This document shows, piece by piece, positions 41,683 through 49,644 of a stretch of 64,000 nucleotides of DNA (its first letter is position 1; each line of letters opens with the position of its first letter). Source of the DNA: Gracilimonas sp. GTDB taxonomy: Bacteria > Bacteroidota > Rhodothermia > Balneolales > Balneolaceae. A program made the translations under genes and the position numbers. The stretch lies in NCBI RefSeq assembly GCF_040218225.1, contig NZ_JAVJQO010000004.1, positions 1 through 64,000 on the forward strand. Direction: 5' to 3'. Under the pieces are notes generated by a model. That model was given only the letters and a program-made list of their open reading frames with translations. It ran no database searches and was not told where the DNA came from.

Positions 41683-42180
41683 CTACTCAGCATACGGGCT
41701 TTCATAATCTGAAGCCTTGTAAATCATTTTGTTTAGTTTTGTGAATAAGAAATTAATGGTTACCAGTATAAAGGTGGCTCCAACTCCCAAGATATATTGC
41801 TTAAGCGCAATGCTGATTCCGATACCTGCCGCCATCAAGATAGTGGCAGACGTTGTAAGGTACCGAACCCTGGTTTTTGACGTACTTTTGAGGATCGTCC
41901 CAGCTCCTATGAAACTTACTCCAACAATCACAGCGTGAAGCATTCGTATCGGGTCTACCCCAAAACTTTCGGTCCCCGCAAGTGTGCTGAAATCATTAAC
42001 CACTACTCGCCCCAGCGACACCAATAACGCTGCAGAACCAGCAATAATCATGTTCGTTCTAAGTCCTGCTGGCTTCTGCTTCCATTCCCGCTCCAGTCCT
42101 AATATGCCTCCTAATACCAAAGCGATACTCACGTCCATCAATATATACGATTGTGCCAGTAAATCCATAATTCTAATCAC
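41683..42180 (-). CDS. MgtC/SapB-family membrane protein
   Basis: 165 residues with four to five helices. The family signature is visible: ALVLGGILGLEREWKQKPAGLRTNMIIAG at 20-47, then HAVIVGVSFIGAGTILKS around residue 90. Only the membrane domain is present; the C-terminal ACT-like domain of Salmonella MgtC is missing, as in many short SapB-type members. The proposed role is in Mg2+ homeostasis or pH stress. The first five codons could be skipped, starting at MDLLAQSY. Confidence 0.88.
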   Translation of the reverse strand: MIRIMDLLAQSYILMDVSIALVLGGILGLEREWKQKPAGLRTNMIIAGSAALLVSLGRVVVNDFSTLAGTESFGVDPIRMLHAVIVGVSFIGAGTILKSTSKTRVRYLTTSATILMAAGIGISIALKQYILGVGATFILVTINFLFTKLNKMIYKASDYESPYAE

Positions 42181-42362: not shown

Positions 42363-43310
42363 ATGAAACATCACAAAGGAATACATCACATTACGGTGCT
42401 TGCAGGAGATGCTCAACGAAATGCAGAGTTTTATACTCATATACTTGGAATGAGGCTGGTCAAGAAGTCAGTAAATCAAGACGATCCGGGAACCTATCAC
42501 CTGTTTTATGGAAATCAATCAGCTAATCCGGGATCAAGCTTAACTTTTTTCCCCTGGCCTAATGCTGTACAGGGTAAGCCTGGAACAGGAGAAGTTGTGA
42601 ATGTGGGACTTCAGGTTCCAGAAGGAACACGAGATTACTGGGAAGTTAGGTTGAGTGAAAATGATGTTAAGTATAATGTGGTAGATGTATTCGGAAGAAC
42701 GGCTCTTCGATTCCAGGATCCGGATGGATTGGAACTGGATTTGGTGTTTGAAGGTGATGCCAAAGACAAAGTTGATAATGTAGATTATGTGGTTCCTTTC
42801 GACAAAACCATCCAGGGTTTTTGGGGAGCACGCATGAAACTGACTGAGCGGGAGCACACTGAGAAACTCATTTATGAGTTATTTGAGTTTGAGGAAAAGG
42901 CTCAGGAAGGAAATCAGTATTTATATCAAACTGATGCCCCAATAGGTCATTCTGTAATCATTGAAGTTGTAAATGCCCCTGTTCATGGTCAAAATGGACG
43001 CGGCATTGTACATCACATTGCATTTCGCGCAGAGAATAAAGAAGAACTGGATCAGCTTCGACAAGAAGTAGGCGGACGTGGTTTACACCCAACTCAAATT
43101 ATTGACCGGCATTGGTTCAATTCCGTGTACTACAGAATCCCAGCCGGAGTGCTTTTTGAAATGGCATCTGATGACCCGGGTTATACCGTAGATGAAGAGT
43201 TCGAACAATTGGGTGAACACCTGATTCTTCCTCCATGGCTGGAGAATAAGCGGGATCGTATTGAACAAATACTGCCGGAAATTAAGGTTCACAAACAATC
43301 GGCATCTTAA
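42363..43310 (+). CDS. Ring-cleaving dioxygenase / glyoxalase-superfamily protein (MhqO-like)
   Basis: 315 residues made of two VOC (vicinal oxygen chelate) modules, about 1-150 and 150-300. Metal-ligand positions are GIHHITVLAGD at the start, LRFQDPDGLELDLVFE at the end of module 1, VHHIAFRAEN in module 2 and a carboxylate in GVLFEMASDDPG. This is the layout of MhqO/MhqA/MhqE, Fe-dependent dioxygenases linked to hydroquinone resistance in Bacillus. The next gene is an MhqD-like esterase, the same pairing. A terminator follows, so it may form its own transcript. Confidence 0.88.
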   Translation: MKHHKGIHHITVLAGDAQRNAEFYTHILGMRLVKKSVNQDDPGTYHLFYGNQSANPGSSLTFFPWPNAVQGKPGTGEVVNVGLQVPEGTRDYWEVRLSENDVKYNVVDVFGRTALRFQDPDGLELDLVFEGDAKDKVDNVDYVVPFDKTIQGFWGARMKLTEREHTEKLIYELFEFEEKAQEGNQYLYQTDAPIGHSVIIEVVNAPVHGQNGRGIVHHIAFRAENKEELDQLRQEVGGRGLHPTQIIDRHWFNSVYYRIPAGVLFEMASDDPGYTVDEEFEQLGEHLILPPWLENKRDRIEQILPEIKVHKQSAS

Positions 43311-43326
43311 TTCAATTACATGTTTA

Positions 43327-43362
43327 AGCAGGGGCATAAGATTTTGTGCCGCTGCTGTTTTT
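43327..43362 (+). terminator. Likely terminator after the MhqO-like gene
   Basis: AGCAG-G-GGCA and TGCC-G-CTGCT form an interrupted stem around a 10-base loop, followed by GTTTTT. It lies just after the stop of the dioxygenase gene. Confidence 0.65.
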
Positions 43363-43399
43363 AAAAGGAAACAAAGTTTAATTCTACCAAATCACATCC

Positions 43400-44068
43400 A
43401 TGAGTTTATTCAGAGTAAAAGATGACACCAATTTTGATGGGCCTCATCAGGCCACACAAATAGCCACAGCTGGCGTACCTGCTTCTGAAGCCGATACAGC
43501 CATGATTATGATTCACGGCCGGGGCGCGAGTGCCCCCAGTATATTGGAACTGGCTTCTCATTTCGAAACTGATCAGAAAATAGCCTACCGTGCCCCTCAG
43601 GCAAACGGACATACGTGGTACCCTTATTCATTTATGGCGCCCACTAACCAAAATGAGCCGGGATTATCTTCAGGCCTCCAAAAAATCTTTGATATCATCG
43701 AAGAGCTGGAATCCGAAGGTATATCTAAAGAGCATATTTACCTGCTCGGTTTCTCTCAGGGCGCATGTCTGGCTTCAGAATTTATAGCCCGACATCCTTC
43801 AAAATATGCCGGACTCATTGCACTTAGTGGAGGCGTTATTGGTGACTCTGTCGACTACGACCAATACACCGGAGACTTAAACGGAACTCCTGCATTTTTG
43901 GGATGCAGTGATGTAGATCCACATATTCCCAAAGAGCGCGTCAATGAAACGGAAGAAGTGTTGAAAAAATTAGGCGCAAGAGTTACGAAAAAGCTCTACC
44001 CGGGCATGGGACACCTTGTGAATGAAGATGAGATCAAGCATATTAATGCCTTATTAAATTCAAAATGA
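43400..44068 (+). CDS. Alpha/beta hydrolase, phospholipase/carboxylesterase family (MhqD-like)
   Basis: 222 residues. The nucleophile elbow is LLGFSQGACLA (Ser about residue 118). The family's MIMIHGRGASAPSIL start provides the oxyanion hole, and the catalytic Asp and His lie in GCSDVDPHIP and YPGMGHLVNEDE. No signal peptide, so cytoplasmic. In Bacillus, MhqD-type esterases are induced by hydroquinones alongside MhqO. Here it directly follows the MhqO-like gene. Confidence 0.9.
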   Translation: MSLFRVKDDTNFDGPHQATQIATAGVPASEADTAMIMIHGRGASAPSILELASHFETDQKIAYRAPQANGHTWYPYSFMAPTNQNEPGLSSGLQKIFDIIEELESEGISKEHIYLLGFSQGACLASEFIARHPSKYAGLIALSGGVIGDSVDYDQYTGDLNGTPAFLGCSDVDPHIPKERVNETEEVLKKLGARVTKKLYPGMGHLVNEDEIKHINALLNSK

Positions 44069-44071
44069 AAG

Positions 44072-44116
44072 ATGAAAAATTAAAAATTGACCGGAAGCCT
44101 ATTTTTAATTTTTCAT
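44072..44116. repeat. AT-rich perfect palindrome, first copy
   Basis: ATGAAAAATTAAAAAT at 44072-44087 and its exact complement at 44101-44116 flank a 13-base GC-richer loop (TGACCGGAAGCCT). An outer ATTCAAAATG / CATTTTGAAT pairing is also available. It sits in the 70-base gap between the esterase and the antiporter. A related palindrome is at 47881-47959. Confidence 0.7.
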
Positions 44117-44138
44117 TTTGAATCTTTAATTCACAAAA

Positions 44139-45707
44139 ATGGAAATTCTTTGGCTGGCGGCAGCTTATATTTTAGGGATGGCTGTATCGCGACTTAAGCT
44201 GCCGCCGTTGGTAGGTTTTTTAGGCGCTGGTATAGCCTTGTCTCTTTTCGGATTTGAAACCACTGATACGCTCCACGAAATCGGACACCTGGGCGTATTG
44301 TTTTTACTCTTTACTGTTGGGTTACATCTTCGGCTAAAGAGTATTTTACGACCTGAAGTATTGGGTGCGGGAGGAATCCATCTGGCACTGACCGCAGGTA
44401 TTTTTGCGCTGATTGCATCATTCTTTGGGTTCGACCTTACACAATCTATCATCATCGGTATCCTGCTTGGTTTTTCGAGTACCGTACTTGCAGCCAAGGC
44501 TTTGGAAGATCGCGGTGAGTTAGGAGCATTCCACGCAAGGGTTTCCATAGGTATTTTGATTTTGCAGGATATCGTAGCCATTGCTTTGCTTGCTTTAACT
44601 GGCGGAGGCGCTCCTTCAATCTGGGGTTTAGCCCTGCTGGCTCTGCCTCTTTTCCGGCCACTATTAATTAAAGCACTCGTTGCCAGCGGACATGATGAAC
44701 TTCAGCTTTTATTCGCCCTTATTTTAGCTATTGGAGGAGGCGCGCTTTTTGAAGTAGTTGGCCTTTCATCTGAATTGGGAGCATTGGTTGCTGGTGCTTT
44801 GCTTTCCGGACATAAGTTAGCCGATGAGCTTACTCATAAATTATGGGGGCTTAAAGAAGCCTTCCTCGTTGGATTTTTCCTGGAAGTAGGGCTTGCCGGT
44901 TTGCCCGGGTATAATGAGCTGATTTTCTGCCTGGTGATTTTGGCTTTACTCCCCATTAAATCTGTACTGTACTTCTTTTTGCTGGTGGGCTTTAAGCTGC
45001 GTTCCAGAAACTCATTTTTAGTAACCACAACTCTGACCTCATACAGTGAATTTACCCTGATTGCCGGAATTGTGGCTGTCTCGGGAGGCTTCATCCCTGA
45101 AACCGTTGTAACCAGTTTTGCCCTGCTTGTGGCTGTTTCCTATGCCATCAATGCACCACTTTCTGCTAATGTAAATGCATTATGGAGCCGTTTTGAACTC
45201 TCACTTCTTACATACGAACGTGATGTCAAGCATCCCGGGCAGCAAGTCATATCACTTGGGAGTGCCAATTATCTTGTAGTCGGAATGGGACAAGCCGGTT
45301 CATCAGCCTACGAATACTTAAAATATTATGGACATAAAGTAATCGGAATGGATGCTGACCCGGCCAAAATCGAAGAAAACATTCAAAGCAAAAGGCGAGT
45401 GGTTTATGGTGATGCCCGTGACCCTGAGCTTTGGGAAAATATCAATCTTTCTAATGTGAAAGCTATCATGCTGGCCATCCCAAATCCCGGCACAAAAGTA
45501 GAAGCCACTAAATTACTGCGTCAATATGGCTATCAGGGAGATGTTGTAGCGTTGACCATGAGAAGTGATGAGCACAAGGCTCTTCGTGAAGCCGGGGCAA
45601 CAGCCGTTTGTCTGCCTATGTCTCAGGCTGGTAAAAAACTGGCTGAACTTAGTCTTGAAGAAGGTCGCTCAGAAAGCACTTCCTTAAACCTGACTTTCGA
45701 CCGATGA
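44139..45707 (+). CDS. Kef-type cation:proton antiporter with TrkA-N domain
   Basis: 522 residues. About twelve helices (1-345) form the Na+/H+-exchanger core, starting with a LKLPPLVGFLGAGIALSLFG segment and including LLFLLFTVGLHLRLKS-type sequence. A RCK/TrkA-N nucleotide-binding domain (about 370-505) has VGMGQAGSSAYEYL and acidic MDADP at the end of strand 2. Layout matches the KefB/C and YbaL families. KefB/C release K+ and acidify the cytoplasm when electrophile-glutathione adducts bind, which fits the MhqO/MhqD neighbours. Its stop overlaps the next ATG (ATGA). Confidence 0.92.
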   Translation: MEILWLAAAYILGMAVSRLKLPPLVGFLGAGIALSLFGFETTDTLHEIGHLGVLFLLFTVGLHLRLKSILRPEVLGAGGIHLALTAGIFALIASFFGFDLTQSIIIGILLGFSSTVLAAKALEDRGELGAFHARVSIGILILQDIVAIALLALTGGGAPSIWGLALLALPLFRPLLIKALVASGHDELQLLFALILAIGGGALFEVVGLSSELGALVAGALLSGHKLADELTHKLWGLKEAFLVGFFLEVGLAGLPGYNELIFCLVILALLPIKSVLYFFLLVGFKLRSRNSFLVTTTLTSYSEFTLIAGIVAVSGGFIPETVVTSFALLVAVSYAINAPLSANVNALWSRFELSLLTYERDVKHPGQQVISLGSANYLVVGMGQAGSSAYEYLKYYGHKVIGMDADPAKIEENIQSKRRVVYGDARDPELWENINLSNVKAIMLAIPNPGTKVEATKLLRQYGYQGDVVALTMRSDEHKALREAGATAVCLPMSQAGKKLAELSLEEGRSESTSLNLTFDR

Positions 45708-46228
45708 GCAATTTATTCAACCAAATATCAGAGGAGGATTACGCCCGGGGGGCATCTGATGCTAAAATCACCCTCTTGGAATATGGGGATTATGAATGCC
45801 CTTACAGCCGCATGGGATATCGGTTTGCCCAGATGTTACTCAGAAATTATTCCGACAGTCTGAAATTTGTATTCCGAAACTTTCCGCTCCGTAAAAAACA
45901 CCCGAATGCACAGCTGGCCGCTGAAGCAGCTTTATGTGCCGGTGCACAAGATCGTTTCTGGGAAATGCACGACCTTCTCTTTGAACATAACCGAACACTT
46001 AGTGAAAGCAGAATCCTTGATTTTGCAGAAGACATCGGGCTGGACTTGTACCGGTTCAAAGTAGATTTAACCACCAATGAATATGCCAAACGTGTCACTA
46101 CCGATTTTCGCGGAGGTGTTCGAAGCGGAGTTGACGACACCCCTGCTTTTTTTGTGAACGGGGAGCGATATTCCGGCGAACTGGATTATAAACAACTGAA
46201 GGCTTTTGTTGATACATTCCTAAACTAA
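45704..46228 (+). CDS. DsbA-like thioredoxin-fold protein with a CPYS active site
   Basis: 174 residues, no signal peptide, so cytoplasmic. The DsbA/FrnE-like fold reads LLEYGDYECPYSRMGYRF, with Cys32 and Ser35 in place of the second cysteine, and the cis-proline lies in VDDTPAFFVNGERYSG. A monothiol site cannot form the internal disulfide needed for dithiol exchange. Such domains are also found fused to NhaA antiporters. Coupled to the Kef-type gene by a 4-base overlap, so it may serve as the antiporter's redox or adduct sensor; that is an inference. Confidence 0.9.
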   Translation: MSNLFNQISEEDYARGASDAKITLLEYGDYECPYSRMGYRFAQMLLRNYSDSLKFVFRNFPLRKKHPNAQLAAEAALCAGAQDRFWEMHDLLFEHNRTLSESRILDFAEDIGLDLYRFKVDLTTNEYAKRVTTDFRGGVRSGVDDTPAFFVNGERYSGELDYKQLKAFVDTFLN

Positions 46229-46238
46229 ATAAACTCCT

Positions 46239-46496
46239 ATGGCTTGTTCACACAAAGATATGATCAAGGTTACCAACACCTCTGCCGATGTATGTCAGGA
46301 TTGTGTGGAACAGGGAAGTTCGTGGGTTCACCTGAGAATGTGCATGACCTGTGGGTATGTGGGCTGTTGCGACTCATCTCCAAACAAACACGCCCGTGCC
46401 CATTTCGAAGAATCAAAACATCCCATCATCCGTTCTGTGGAGCCGGGTGAGGAATGGCGCTGGTGTTATATTGACGAACAATTCGTGAGGCCCTGA
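46239..46496 (+). CDS. UBP-type zinc-finger protein
   Basis: 85 residues that form one ZnF-UBP domain. Ligand-type residues are Cys3, His5, a CQDC pair, CMTCGYVGCCD, and the histidines in KHARAHFEESKHP. The eukaryotic domain binds the C-terminal tail of ubiquitin. Bacteria lack ubiquitin, so the target here is unknown. Its TGA and the following kinase ATG share one base (TGATG), which indicates coupled translation with the kinase. Confidence 0.92.
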   Translation: MACSHKDMIKVTNTSADVCQDCVEQGSSWVHLRMCMTCGYVGCCDSSPNKHARAHFEESKHPIIRSVEPGEEWRWCYIDEQFVRP

Positions 46497-47881
46497 TGAA
46501 CGACTATATCGTAAAAGGCATTAAATCTTTTCCTCAGTTTGCAGAGGTTCCTGAAGACCAGCTTCGGGCTTATGTAGAACTTTCTGAGATCTGCACCTAT
46601 CAACCTGATGAAGTCATTATTAAACCCGGGGATGAGATTAACAAGATGTACCTGGTGCTGGAAGGAAATATCCGTCTCCAGCTCAAGCGCGGAGAACAAT
46701 TCACCGTAATTGATTCTTTTGAAGCCGGAGACCTGACGGGAAAACTTCCTTTTTCAAGACTTCAATCTTCCCTCGCCTATGTTACTGTTATGGAAGAATC
46801 TACCGTTCTGATTACACATGAAGATAAATTCCCGGACGTAGCATCTCATTATAAATTAATTGAGTCGTTTGTGCATGCGCTTTCCGACCGTATTCGCCAT
46901 TTCACAACTCAGCAACAGCAAAATGAAAAATTACTGGCGCTTGGGAAACTTTCAGCCGGACTGGCACATGAATTAAACAATCCGGCTTCAGCTATGGTTA
47001 GAAGTGCTATTTCGCTGAAGGAAAACCTTCATGCCAAACCGGAGAAATTCAAGGGCATGATGGAACTCAATCTTGCCAGCGAACAGGTAGATGCCATTAA
47101 TAAAGTGATTTTTGATAAGCTGAATACCCAGACTCCCTCCCTCTCTTTGATGGAGCGAACCTCTCTCGAAGACGAACTGGCCGACTGGATGGAAGAGCAC
47201 GGTATTGATGAAGCTTATGAGCTTGCAGAAACATTTGCCGAACATGGATTTGATGAGGAGGCACTGGAAAGAATCAAGGATATCGGGGATGAAGCCATGC
47301 TTTCACCTGTATTCAAATGGATTGAAGATGTGTTTGTAACTGAGAAAATGATTGCAGAAGTAGAAGATGCTTCCCGCCGGATTTCTGACCTTGTTTCTTC
47401 TGTAAAAACCTATTCTCATATGGATCAGGCAAATGAAAAAGAACCGGTTGACCTTGATAAGTTGTTGAAAAGTACCCTCAGCATTTTGAATCATAAGATT
47501 AAGGAAAAACAGATTTCTGTAGATGTCAGCATTCCTGATGATTTGCCTGAATTTTGTGGTTTTGTGAGTGAACTAAATCAGGTTTGGATGAATTTACTCG
47601 ACAACGCGGTGGATGCTTCTGAGAAAGAAGGCCATATCGAGATTTCTGCCAAAACGAAAAACGGCGACCTCCGAATTTTTTTTAAAGATCATGGTGCCGG
47701 AATTCCGGAAGACATCCAAACAAAAATTTTTGATCCTTTCTTTACAACCAAAGGAGTAGGACAGGGAACCGGACTTGGGCTCGATTTTGTACGGAAAATT
47801 GTGAATAAACACGATGGAACTATTTCAGTTCAATCCAAACCCGGAGAAACTATTTTTGAACTCTGTTTCCCACTCAAGTAA
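46496..47881 (+). CDS. Soluble histidine kinase with cyclic-nucleotide-binding-like domain
   Basis: 461 residues, no membrane helices. Residues 8-130 form a cNMP-binding-like beta roll (VIIKPGDEINKMYLVLEGNIRL split over two strands; DSFEAGDLTGKLPF in the phosphate-cassette region, lacking the canonical RxA arginine). A long helix leads to the H-box GKLSAGLAHELNNPASAMV with His158. An inserted helical segment of about 100 residues separates it from the ATPase (NQVWMNLLDNAVDAS, DHGAGIPEDIQ, GTGLGLDFV). It is likely the partner of the following response-regulator fusion. Confidence 0.92.
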   Translation: MNDYIVKGIKSFPQFAEVPEDQLRAYVELSEICTYQPDEVIIKPGDEINKMYLVLEGNIRLQLKRGEQFTVIDSFEAGDLTGKLPFSRLQSSLAYVTVMEESTVLITHEDKFPDVASHYKLIESFVHALSDRIRHFTTQQQQNEKLLALGKLSAGLAHELNNPASAMVRSAISLKENLHAKPEKFKGMMELNLASEQVDAINKVIFDKLNTQTPSLSLMERTSLEDELADWMEEHGIDEAYELAETFAEHGFDEEALERIKDIGDEAMLSPVFKWIEDVFVTEKMIAEVEDASRRISDLVSSVKTYSHMDQANEKEPVDLDKLLKSTLSILNHKIKEKQISVDVSIPDDLPEFCGFVSELNQVWMNLLDNAVDASEKEGHIEISAKTKNGDLRIFFKDHGAGIPEDIQTKIFDPFFTTKGVGQGTGLGLDFVRKIVNKHDGTISVQSKPGETIFELCFPLK

Positions 47882-47959
47882 TTCAAAATTAAAGATGAAA
47901 AACTTAAAATTAGTCTCAACAATTTTATACCGTTTCGTCTTTAATTTTTAATTTTGAAT
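47881..47959. repeat. AT-rich palindrome, second copy
   Basis: ATTCAAAATT at 47881-47890 pairs with AATTTTGAAT at 47950-47959, and AAAGATG pairs with CGTCTTT further in (one G-U pair). It shares the ATTCAAAAT and AAAGATGAAAAA segments with the palindrome near 44072 and sits in the gap between the kinase and the response-regulator fusion. Confidence 0.6.
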
Positions 47960-47976
47960 TTTTAATTCCCGCAGGG

Positions 47977-49644
47977 ATGAGTAAACCGATAATTTTTGTA
48001 ATTGATGATGATGCACAGGTCCTCCGTGCGGTGACGAGAGATTTGCGCAACCAATACCGCAGCGATTACCGGATTATGAGCACCGACTCCTGCAAAGAGG
48101 CGTTGGAATCTTTACCCAACCTGAAGAAAAAAGGAGAAACAGTAGCGCTCTTTCTCAGCGATCAGCGGATGCCCGAAATGATGGGCGTTGAATTTCTGGA
48201 GAAGGCCAGAAAAATATACCCCGAAGCCAAGCGGGTGTTGCTAACCGCTTACTCTGATATGGAAGCCGCTATCAAAGCCATAAATGAGGTGCAGCTTGAT
48301 TATTATTTACTGAAACCCTGGGATCCTCCCGAAGAAAAACTATACCCCATTCTCGACGATCAGCTGGATGAATGGCTGGCGAACTTCAAACCCGAGTTTC
48401 ACGGAATCCGCCTCGTTGGTTATCAATACTCGCCTAAATCACATGCTGTAAAGGATTATCTTTCAGGGAACCTGATTCCCTATCGCTGGCTCGATATTGA
48501 AACCAATGACAAAGCCTCCGATCTGCTGAAGGATTATGAAATCAGTAATGACGACCTTCCGGCTATCTTTTTTGAGGATGGAAGTCATTTTATTGAGCCT
48601 TCTCCCAAAGCCATTGCCGAGAAACTTGGCCGTAGTCCTACCGCGAATGAAAATATCTATGATGTGGCTATTATCGGCGCCGGCCCGGCCGGACTTGCCG
48701 CAGCCGTTTATGGAGGTTCCGAAGGGTTAAAAACACTGCTCATTGAAAAACGGGCCCCCGGCGGACAAGCGGGTACAAGCTCCAGGATCGAAAATTATCT
48801 CGGATTCCCAAAAGGACTTAGCGGTTCTGATTTAGCCCGACGAGCCATCACCCAGGCCAAACGTTTTGGCGTTGAATTTCTATCGCCACAGGAAGTGGTC
48901 GACATATCCCTCACCGATCAATACAAAACCGTAAAAATGGCCGATGGTTCTGAGATTAATGCGAAGGCAGTGGTGGTAACCACCGGCGTAAATTATCGCA
49001 AACTGGAAAGCAAAGGAATTTCAGATTTTACCGGAGCTGGCATTTATTATGGCGCTGCGATGACGGAAGCCCATGCTTTCAAAAACAAGCAGGTATATAT
49101 CGTGGGGGGAGGAAACTCAGCCGGACAAGCTGCTATGTATTTATCCACTTTTGCTAAAGATGTGAAAATCCTGATTCGTGGGGAATCTTTGGTTTCCAGC
49201 ATGTCTTCCTATCTCATTCATCAGCTTGATGATACAGAAAACATCACGGTCATGGCCCACACTGAAGTGAAAGAAGCCTGTGGTGATGGAAAACTTCAAA
49301 AACTGGTTTTATATAATAATCAGGAAGATTCACATAGCGATGTGGAAGCTGACGGACTTTTTATTTTCATTGGCGCCCGCCCATATACCGACTGGATTAA
49401 AGCGAATGTGATTAAAAGCGAACGCGGTTTCATAGAAACCGGCAGAGATCTTCAGCGATATGATAACTTCAAAAAAACATGGAAGCTGGACCGTCAGCCT
49501 TATCTGTTAGAAACCTGTTCTCCTGGTATTTTCGCTGCTGGTGATGTACGAGCTGGTGCCATGAACCGGGTAGCCTCGGCTGTGGGCGAAGGCTCGATGG
49601 CCATCAAGTATGTGCATGAGTATCTGGCCGACTCAAACACCTGA
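47977..49644 (+). CDS. Response regulator fused to glutaredoxin-like and thioredoxin-reductase-like domains
   Basis: 555 residues in three parts. A receiver domain (1-125) has VIDDDAQ, Asp62 in LSDQRMPE and Lys113 in LLKPWD. A glutaredoxin-like domain (140-218) reads VGYQYSPKSHAVKDYL, where Ser and His stand in for the active-site cysteines. A FAD/NAD(P)H flavoprotein domain of thioredoxin-reductase type (228-555) has VAIIGAGPAGLAAAVY, PGGQAGTSSRIENYLGFP, YIVGGGNSAGQAA and FAAGDVRAGAMNRVASAVGE. The redox CATC motif of thioredoxin reductase is replaced by GAAM (359-362). It probably reduces another acceptor under control of the adjacent kinase. Confidence 0.93.
   Translation: MSKPIIFVIDDDAQVLRAVTRDLRNQYRSDYRIMSTDSCKEALESLPNLKKKGETVALFLSDQRMPEMMGVEFLEKARKIYPEAKRVLLTAYSDMEAAIKAINEVQLDYYLLKPWDPPEEKLYPILDDQLDEWLANFKPEFHGIRLVGYQYSPKSHAVKDYLSGNLIPYRWLDIETNDKASDLLKDYEISNDDLPAIFFEDGSHFIEPSPKAIAEKLGRSPTANENIYDVAIIGAGPAGLAAAVYGGSEGLKTLLIEKRAPGGQAGTSSRIENYLGFPKGLSGSDLARRAITQAKRFGVEFLSPQEVVDISLTDQYKTVKMADGSEINAKAVVVTTGVNYRKLESKGISDFTGAGIYYGAAMTEAHAFKNKQVYIVGGGNSAGQAAMYLSTFAKDVKILIRGESLVSSMSSYLIHQLDDTENITVMAHTEVKEACGDGKLQKLVLYNNQEDSHSDVEADGLFIFIGARPYTDWIKANVIKSERGFIETGRDLQRYDNFKKTWKLDRQPYLLETCSPGIFAAGDVRAGAMNRVASAVGEGSMAIKYVHEYLADSNT

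Follow-up and report, generated by a model that had tools for sequence, protein, structure and literature searches.

Do the seven plus-strand genes at positions 42363-49644 of a Gracilimonas sp. contig (NZ_JAVJQO010000004.1) act together, and what do the kinase and the unusual flavoprotein at their end contribute? The window, that is, the whole stretch of DNA analysed, comprises 64,000 nucleotides. We slightly favour the reading that all seven belong to a single three-layered system of defence against electrophiles and quinones, in which an antiporter is gated via partner proteins and a kinase-flavoprotein pair exerts control. Below, RRTR stands for a fusion of receiver, glutaredoxin-like and thioredoxin-reductase-like (TrxR-like) parts, DsbL for a DsbA-like protein and CNB for a cyclic nucleotide-binding domain; L-numbers are loci or contigs and G-numbers are genomes. 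The features are listed by position, with lengths in amino acids (aa).

42363..43310, plus strand: MhqO-like ring-cleaving (VOC) dioxygenase, 315 aa (two Pfam Glyoxalase domains; match to 3oaj)
43400..44068, plus strand: MhqD-like phospholipase/carboxylesterase, 222 aa (Pfam Abhydrolase_2)
44139..45707, plus strand: CPA2 cation:proton antiporter with an RCK/KTN domain, 522 aa (Pfam Na_H_Exchanger, and TrkA_N at aa 378-493)
45609..45611, plus strand: Cys491 in the antiporter RCK domain, a cysteine in 24/31 antiporter homologues
45704..46228, plus strand: DsbL, 174 aa, with a monothiol CPYS motif (Cys32); Pfam Thioredoxin_4/DSBA; overlaps the antiporter gene by 4 nucleotides (nt)
46239..46496, plus strand: UBP zinc-finger protein, 85 aa (Pfam zf-UBP)
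46496..47881, plus strand: soluble histidine kinase with a CNB-like sensor (aa 34-116), His158 and HATPase_c (aa 359-460); Pfam cNMP_binding and HATPase_c
47977..49644, plus strand: RRTR, 555 aa, without redox cysteines (Pfam Response_reg and Pyr_redox_2; AlphaFold2 model)
47977..48351, plus strand: RRTR receiver with acidic pocket D10-D11, phosphoacceptor D62, T90 and K113 (from alignments)
48406..48630, plus strand: RRTR glutaredoxin-like domain, SPKS at the active-site position (from alignment)
48655..49626, plus strand: RRTR TrxR-like FAD/NAD(P)H domain, YGAAMTEA in place of CxxC (from alignment)

An earlier note on this DNA had described these seven genes and their domains. All seven open reading frames were confirmed in the same order, and each domain call was upheld by Pfam. 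The intergenic gaps from MhqO to RRTR are +89, +70, -4, +10, -1 and +95 bases; the note counted four junctions that overlap or lie within 11 bases, but there are only three. The tightly packed stretch is antiporter–DsbL–UBP–kinase.

The neighbourhood recurs in relatives. At the 16 Balneolaceae loci with RRTR, the antiporter and the kinase are adjacent every time (16/16), UBP is found in 14, DsbL in 11, and the stretch includes both MhqO and MhqD in 13/16. In many genomes the locus is flanked by conserved genes (M48 peptidase, AsmA-like). Two genomes, G002 and G006 (L146 and L145), carry MhqO–MhqD followed directly by the AsmA-like gene, a natural empty site for the antiporter-to-RRTR block, and G003 and G004 have MhqO–MhqD–antiporter without the signalling genes. 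The island is modular, with pieces gained or lost separately. Thus, of the claim that the set is one system, the part that holds is that the genes belong together; the set is not indivisible, as parts of it occur alone.

Beyond the family, the same components are found rearranged and fused. In L211 they form the Pfam-confirmed run RRTR(5)MhqO(-4)MhqD(20)antiporter::UBP(22)kinase (gaps in bases), where MhqO, MhqD and the kinase share 37%, 48% and 41% identity with those of the window. L207 and L208 likewise hold RRTR, MhqO, MhqD and antiporter::UBP within one stretch. The earlier note would have been contradicted by a neighbourhood that is not conserved; what we found were all 16 Balneolaceae loci and, in another family, the shuffled L211 set. 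Antiporters with a C-terminal UBP fusion occur in L120, L125, L126, L181, L207, L208, L209, L211, L212, L213, L215, L217 and L220, and antiporters with a C-terminal monothiol glutaredoxin domain (CxLT) in L118, L119, L218, L219 and L221, from three further families of the class. In many cases the fused antiporters stand beside kinase and/or RRTR genes; a single protein combines antiporter, TrkA_N and zf-UBP in L120, L125, L126 and L211, where kinase and RRTR genes adjoin it, as they also do the glutaredoxin fusions. The fused-type antiporter of L125 is only 25% identical to that of the window and is hence a different CPA2 antiporter. Shuffled order, fusions and a replaced antiporter argue for one system. 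For three or more of 18 fused-antiporter genomes to have MhqO within 10 kb of RRTR, a simple model that ignores kinship gives p between 1e-4 and 5e-3. A Deinococcus ficus plasmid (L195:4171-6207) has an antiporter with a C-terminal UBP and no kinase or flavoprotein nearby.

RRTR had been taken as part of a redox-signalling core. If thiol exchange is meant, this does not stand: RRTR lacks both active-site cysteines and would in that sense be neither a redox enzyme nor a thiol sensor. CxxC is missing from all relatives and from all CNB-fused or receiver-less variants aligned, those of other phyla included. At the glutaredoxin active site, SPKS replaces CxxC or CxxS, with no conserved cysteine there in 54 homologues; nor did these 54 reveal a conserved cysteine elsewhere, the two commonest positions being Cys in about half. 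On the other hand, the FAD/NAD(P)H motifs GAGPAG, GGQ, GGGNSA and GDVR are present, and the FAD and dinucleotide motifs are invariant in the alignments. Of HRRxxxR, the NADPH motif in TrxR, a single Arg is left, while an ordinary TrxR of the same genome (C6:585731) retains both CATC and HRRxxxR. The AlphaFold2 model (pLDDT 86) superimposes on Lactococcus lactis TrxR (5mh4) with a TM score of 0.93, and the score against the curated TrxR family is 239.9, with a cut-off of 343. Because CxxC is lost while the FAD/NAD(P)H motifs, the receiver Asp and the kinase His are intact, RRTR is read as a putative phospho-controlled flavoprotein, its fold apparently live, that would perform no thiol chemistry and not act as a thiol reductase.

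RRTR shares with TrxR and AhpF the two-domain FAD/NAD(P)H fold, and with AhpF a thioredoxin-fold N-terminal domain; it differs in having neither CxxC nor glutaredoxin cysteines, a reduced NADPH motif and a receiver (or CNB) in front. Closer still are the proteins named by NCBI 'Cyclic nucleotide-binding domain-containing thioredoxin-disulfide reductase', which have the cysteine-less glutaredoxin-TrxR-like module and also stand beside a UBP protein. There, however, CNB replaces the receiver, which makes a kinase partner unnecessary, and the genes sit in ClpB-trxA loci. Literature searches returned no functional paper on them. RRTR was also considered as a YpdA-like bacillithiol disulfide reductase, but the match is weak (69 bits, cut-off 340), and the position of the catalytic Cys of YpdA is Ala in the GAGPAG motif.

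On plasmids of Nostocales/Chroococcales (L046, L047, L052), the receiver-flavoprotein gene lies downstream of glgX and an AGE-family epimerase gene. Genes for 'low temperature requirement protein A' are found near it on Nostoc and Deinococcus plasmids (L046, L052, L051).

The two-component residues are complete. His158 of the kinase, in the H-box, is invariant in 46 homologues and the ATPase domain is present, and D10-D11, D62, T90 and K113 of the receiver are nearly invariant. The kinase gene adjoins RRTR at 16/16 Balneolaceae loci and 27/31 other Bacteroidota loci, 43/47 altogether; the same adjacency occurs on plasmids of Nostoc, Caballeronia, Streptomyces, Tsukamurella and Deinococcus. This is consistent with phosphotransfer from the kinase to the RRTR receiver, a step we infer from residues and gene order. 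The sensor has a CNB fold (PF00027, 43.8 bits, cut-off 27.5). Its alignment to cAMP/cGMP proteins is weak, and a signature of its own, GxLPxSR, conserved at 98%, occupies the pocket where the phosphate-binding Glu/Arg motif is expected. As that motif, the canonical one of cAMP receptors, is not obvious here, the ligand may be something other than a cyclic nucleotide.

The UBP protein has the zf-UBP fold (56.9 bits in Pfam, cut-off 22.7), and its closest relative in the PDB is a bacterial protein, 2ida (102 bits). The CGRY of HDAC6 aligns to CDSS, so that the GRY residues, which in HDAC6 belong to the pocket for the ubiquitin C-terminus, are not found. UBP tends to occur in the same genomes as the flavoprotein. 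RRTR or a receiver-less form is present in 31/34 UBP genomes among 394 of the phylum (Fisher 9e-29; often at a separate locus), and RRTR or Grx-TrxR in 28/34 UBP genomes of a class sample of 218 (p 2e-22) and in 9/10 among 58 relatives (p 9e-9), but the phylum and class samples overlap and the statistics ignore kinship, which lessens what they can lend to our reading. UBP genes also adjoin cysteine-less flavoprotein genes on plasmids of Rhizobium, Agrobacterium, Burkholderia, Rhodococcus and Streptomyces, if not in every plasmid record examined.

On a Streptomyces (L148:174-5302) and a Rhodococcus plasmid (L201:146-6960), UBP and a CNB-fused cysteine-less flavoprotein are encoded in chaperone operons with the order ClpB-trxA-UBP-flavoprotein, to which Rhodococcus adds DnaK/GrpE/CbpM. 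This placement is suggestive of a link with protein quality control.

The antiporter shares with KefB and KefC a CPA2 transporter domain followed by an RCK/KTN domain (Pfam), and it aligns along its length with Escherichia coli KefC (8bxg), keeping the K+-site aspartate D156. Gating by glutathione as in KefB/C, which the earlier note names as protecting against electrophiles, is not supported. The KefC glutathione residues R409, Q412, R416, R498, D499 and R516 (taken from PMC10224563 and PMC11150392) are replaced by Q, S, E, M, R and L, and the antiporter terminates before the C-terminal KefC helix that bears N551. Its score against the NCBIfam KefC model is 139.8 bits, with a cut-off of 752. 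With the glutathione site and the N551 helix missing, the antiporter appears to resemble RosB/YbaL rather than KefB/C. The best alignment of the RCK part is with 3c85, presumably the VpRosB structure to which PMC10224563 refers. RosB/YbaL-type antiporters likewise have an RCK domain but no Kef C-terminal extension; their operon partners are different, and what YbaL does physiologically is itself not well established (PMC10224563).

The pairs KefC-KefF and KefB-KefG of E. coli resemble the present set in combining CPA2 and RCK, a companion flavoprotein, an electrophile context and D156. Here, in contrast, the partners are a monothiol thioredoxin-fold protein, UBP and the kinase-flavoprotein pair, the glutathione site is absent, and no KefF/KefG-type flavodoxin-like gene was found among the neighbours of the antiporter; some Kef systems likewise lack such an ancillary gene (PMC10224563). 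The genome encodes BshC, a bacillithiol gene, and therefore bacillithiol is the likely low-molecular-weight thiol. The glutathione synthetase family, tried as a test for glutathione, also matches in Bacillus subtilis and archaea and was uninformative.

DsbL looks cytosolic and is monothiol, as had been proposed: the CxxC of DsbA oxidoreductases is replaced by CPYS here and by CP[YF]S in 15/15 relatives. The proposed tie between DsbL and the antiporter survives as a partner role, given the monothiol glutaredoxin domains fused to antiporter C-termini. Thioredoxin-fold partners of the antiporter are thus of two types in different families, each with a single active-site cysteine. Fusion and adjacency support the view that DsbL or glutaredoxin, as well as UBP, belong to the antiporter. 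Cys491 of the RCK domain was considered as the residue that DsbL engages and was rejected, as it occurs without DsbL too and no coupling was seen.

Another pairing of this kind was observed in L138:8267-10500 and L140, where a Kef-type antiporter gene is followed by one for an FrnE-like DsbA (CGWC), the genes overlapping by 4-11 nt. A second, apparently decayed module lies in the same genome (L036:7109-15623; G000 C6:287108-295622, within the locus C6:280000-298000). It encodes a receiver-less flavoprotein, LysR, an FrnE-type DsbA, an FAD monooxygenase, a Kef-type antiporter, a short DsbL of 126 aa and a UBP remnant whose open reading frame has only 50 aa; a phage-type integrase gene follows. 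A comparable DsbA-flavoprotein-FAD-monooxygenase order is found on a Gloeocapsa plasmid (L149).

MhqO is a two-domain VOC enzyme whose closest PDB relative, B. subtilis MhqO (3oaj, 231 bits), matches it in full length (residues 3-310); the family is present in 52/58 relatives. Like the Mhq genes of Bacillus and Staphylococcus (MhqO, MhqE, MhqD; PMC6798810), the pair joins a dioxygenase with a carboxylesterase, but there is no adjoining MarR regulator of the MhqR type, and the enzymes are coupled instead to an antiporter as well as to a two-component pair. According to PMC6798810, bacillithiol is among the thiols whose quinone adducts MhqO-type enzymes act on.

These observations allow us to propose how the system might work. 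In the first layer, judging from the enzyme families, MhqO would open the ring of quinone- or hydroquinone-thiol adducts and MhqD would cleave the ester products; the stress is presumably caused by quinones or their bacillithiol adducts. In the second, the CPA2 antiporter would swap K+ (or Na+) for H+, and the acidified cytosol would protect thiols. Gating would occur via RCK, by the monothiol thioredoxin-fold subunit (DsbL, elsewhere a fused glutaredoxin) and the UBP subunit. In the third, the soluble kinase would sense a cytosolic ligand through its modified cyclic-nucleotide-type pocket and phosphorylate the RRTR receiver. RRTR would then change state and act on or through UBP and, in Rhodothermia, on the antiporter, and its place would correspond to that of the flavoprotein KefF in the KefC system. 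That control runs from RRTR to UBP and the antiporter, in response to such a ligand, is what we infer from this arrangement. More tentatively, and with rather less confidence than for the system as a whole, we suggest that a receiver (or CNB) controlling a thiol-less TrxR-like flavoprotein could be a flavin/nucleotide-state switch working via a UBP adaptor, which in Rhodothermia would be docked on or fused to an antiporter, so that phosphorylation under stress would set the cytosolic pH.

The system seems to be undescribed so far: literature searches on the fusion, UBP and CNB-TrxR found no paper in which the kinase–flavoprotein–UBP core is described. The present reading predicts with whom, and in what setting, the proteins act that bear three very common, unstudied annotations, namely the 'UBP-type zinc finger domain-containing protein', the receiver- or CNB-fused 'FAD-dependent oxidoreductase / thioredoxin-disulfide reductase' and the adjoining kinase. 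If true, bacteria would possess a phosphorelay that ends in a flavoprotein instead of a DNA-binding or cyclic-di-GMP domain, as well as an electrophile defence that resembles Kef but makes no use of glutathione. It would also give a testable role to a zinc-finger family that reads ubiquitin tails in eukaryotes.

Several observations weigh against the proposed system. Outside the class, the kinase-RRTR pair mostly lacks adjoining antiporter or Mhq genes, so antiporter control was not its ancestral job; no recurrent neighbours of note were seen there besides the kinase and the UBP/antiporter genes. The main uncertainty is whether the pair acts on the antiporter or only belongs to the same regulon, for its distribution goes far beyond that of its association with the antiporter. 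MhqO-MhqD, with or without the antiporter, exists without kinase-RRTR, and G015 carries MhqO–MhqD–antiporter–DsbL–UBP with no kinase or RRTR, which indicates that UBP and DsbL are able to function in their absence. Tested by phyletic profile as a co-evolving partner of RRTR, MhqO failed (p 0.30), being nearly universal in relatives. On a rival reading, kinase, RRTR and UBP make up a module for NAD(P)H/flavin stress signalling in general, with targets of its own, which in Rhodothermia has no more than promoters and loci in common with the antiporter and detoxification genes and would not act on the antiporter. It is favoured by the kinase-RRTR pairs of Cyanobacteria, Burkholderiales, Actinomycetota, Deinococcota and most Bacteroidota, which have neither antiporter nor Mhq genes next to them. 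The pairing of UBP with a flavoprotein that lacks cysteines, seen in Rhizobiaceae, Burkholderia, Rhodococcus and Streptomyces, also speaks for it; in Rhodococcus and Streptomyces the neighbours are ClpB and trxA and not antiporters. We nevertheless consider it rather unlikely, since several families have UBP fused to antiporters and two antiporter-fusion types stand beside kinase-RRTR; co-transcription alone is insufficient because it leaves the UBP domain fusions unexplained.

Alternatively, RRTR might chiefly be an enzyme: an NAD(P)H:quinone (or ferredoxin-type) oxidoreductase, switched by phosphorylation, which would act on quinones directly and detoxify them without signalling to the antiporter. 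KefF, a quinone reductase whose gene adjoins that of KefC (PMC10224563), offers a precedent; the Mhq genes lie close by, and the FAD/dinucleotide motifs of RRTR are invariant although the disulfide site is gone. The loss of all but one Arg of HRRxxxR and the lack of quinone-related neighbours in most relatives make this improbable. Less probable again is a system for pH/ion or osmotic homeostasis with the Mhq genes as incidental neighbours: the antiporter is indeed constant in Balneolaceae (16/16) and MhqO/D are missing from the stretch in 3/16, but several genera have MhqO, MhqD and the antiporter side by side at differing places in the genome, and in L207-L209 and L211 the adjacency is seen again although the antiporter is a different one. 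A chance neighbourhood with no shared function is hardly credible; separate gain and loss of modules, as where MhqO-MhqD meets AsmA in G002 and G006, would be expected under it, but conserved tight spacing, fusions, shuffled re-assembly elsewhere and strong co-occurrence contradict it.

A scan of the locus for promoters and terminators was uninformative, with 9 promoter-like sites against 15 expected and 12 terminator-like sites against 7.8 expected. Upstream of the island, an MgtC-family gene at 41683-42180 on the minus strand is divergent from MhqO, and it occupies the same position in several relatives.

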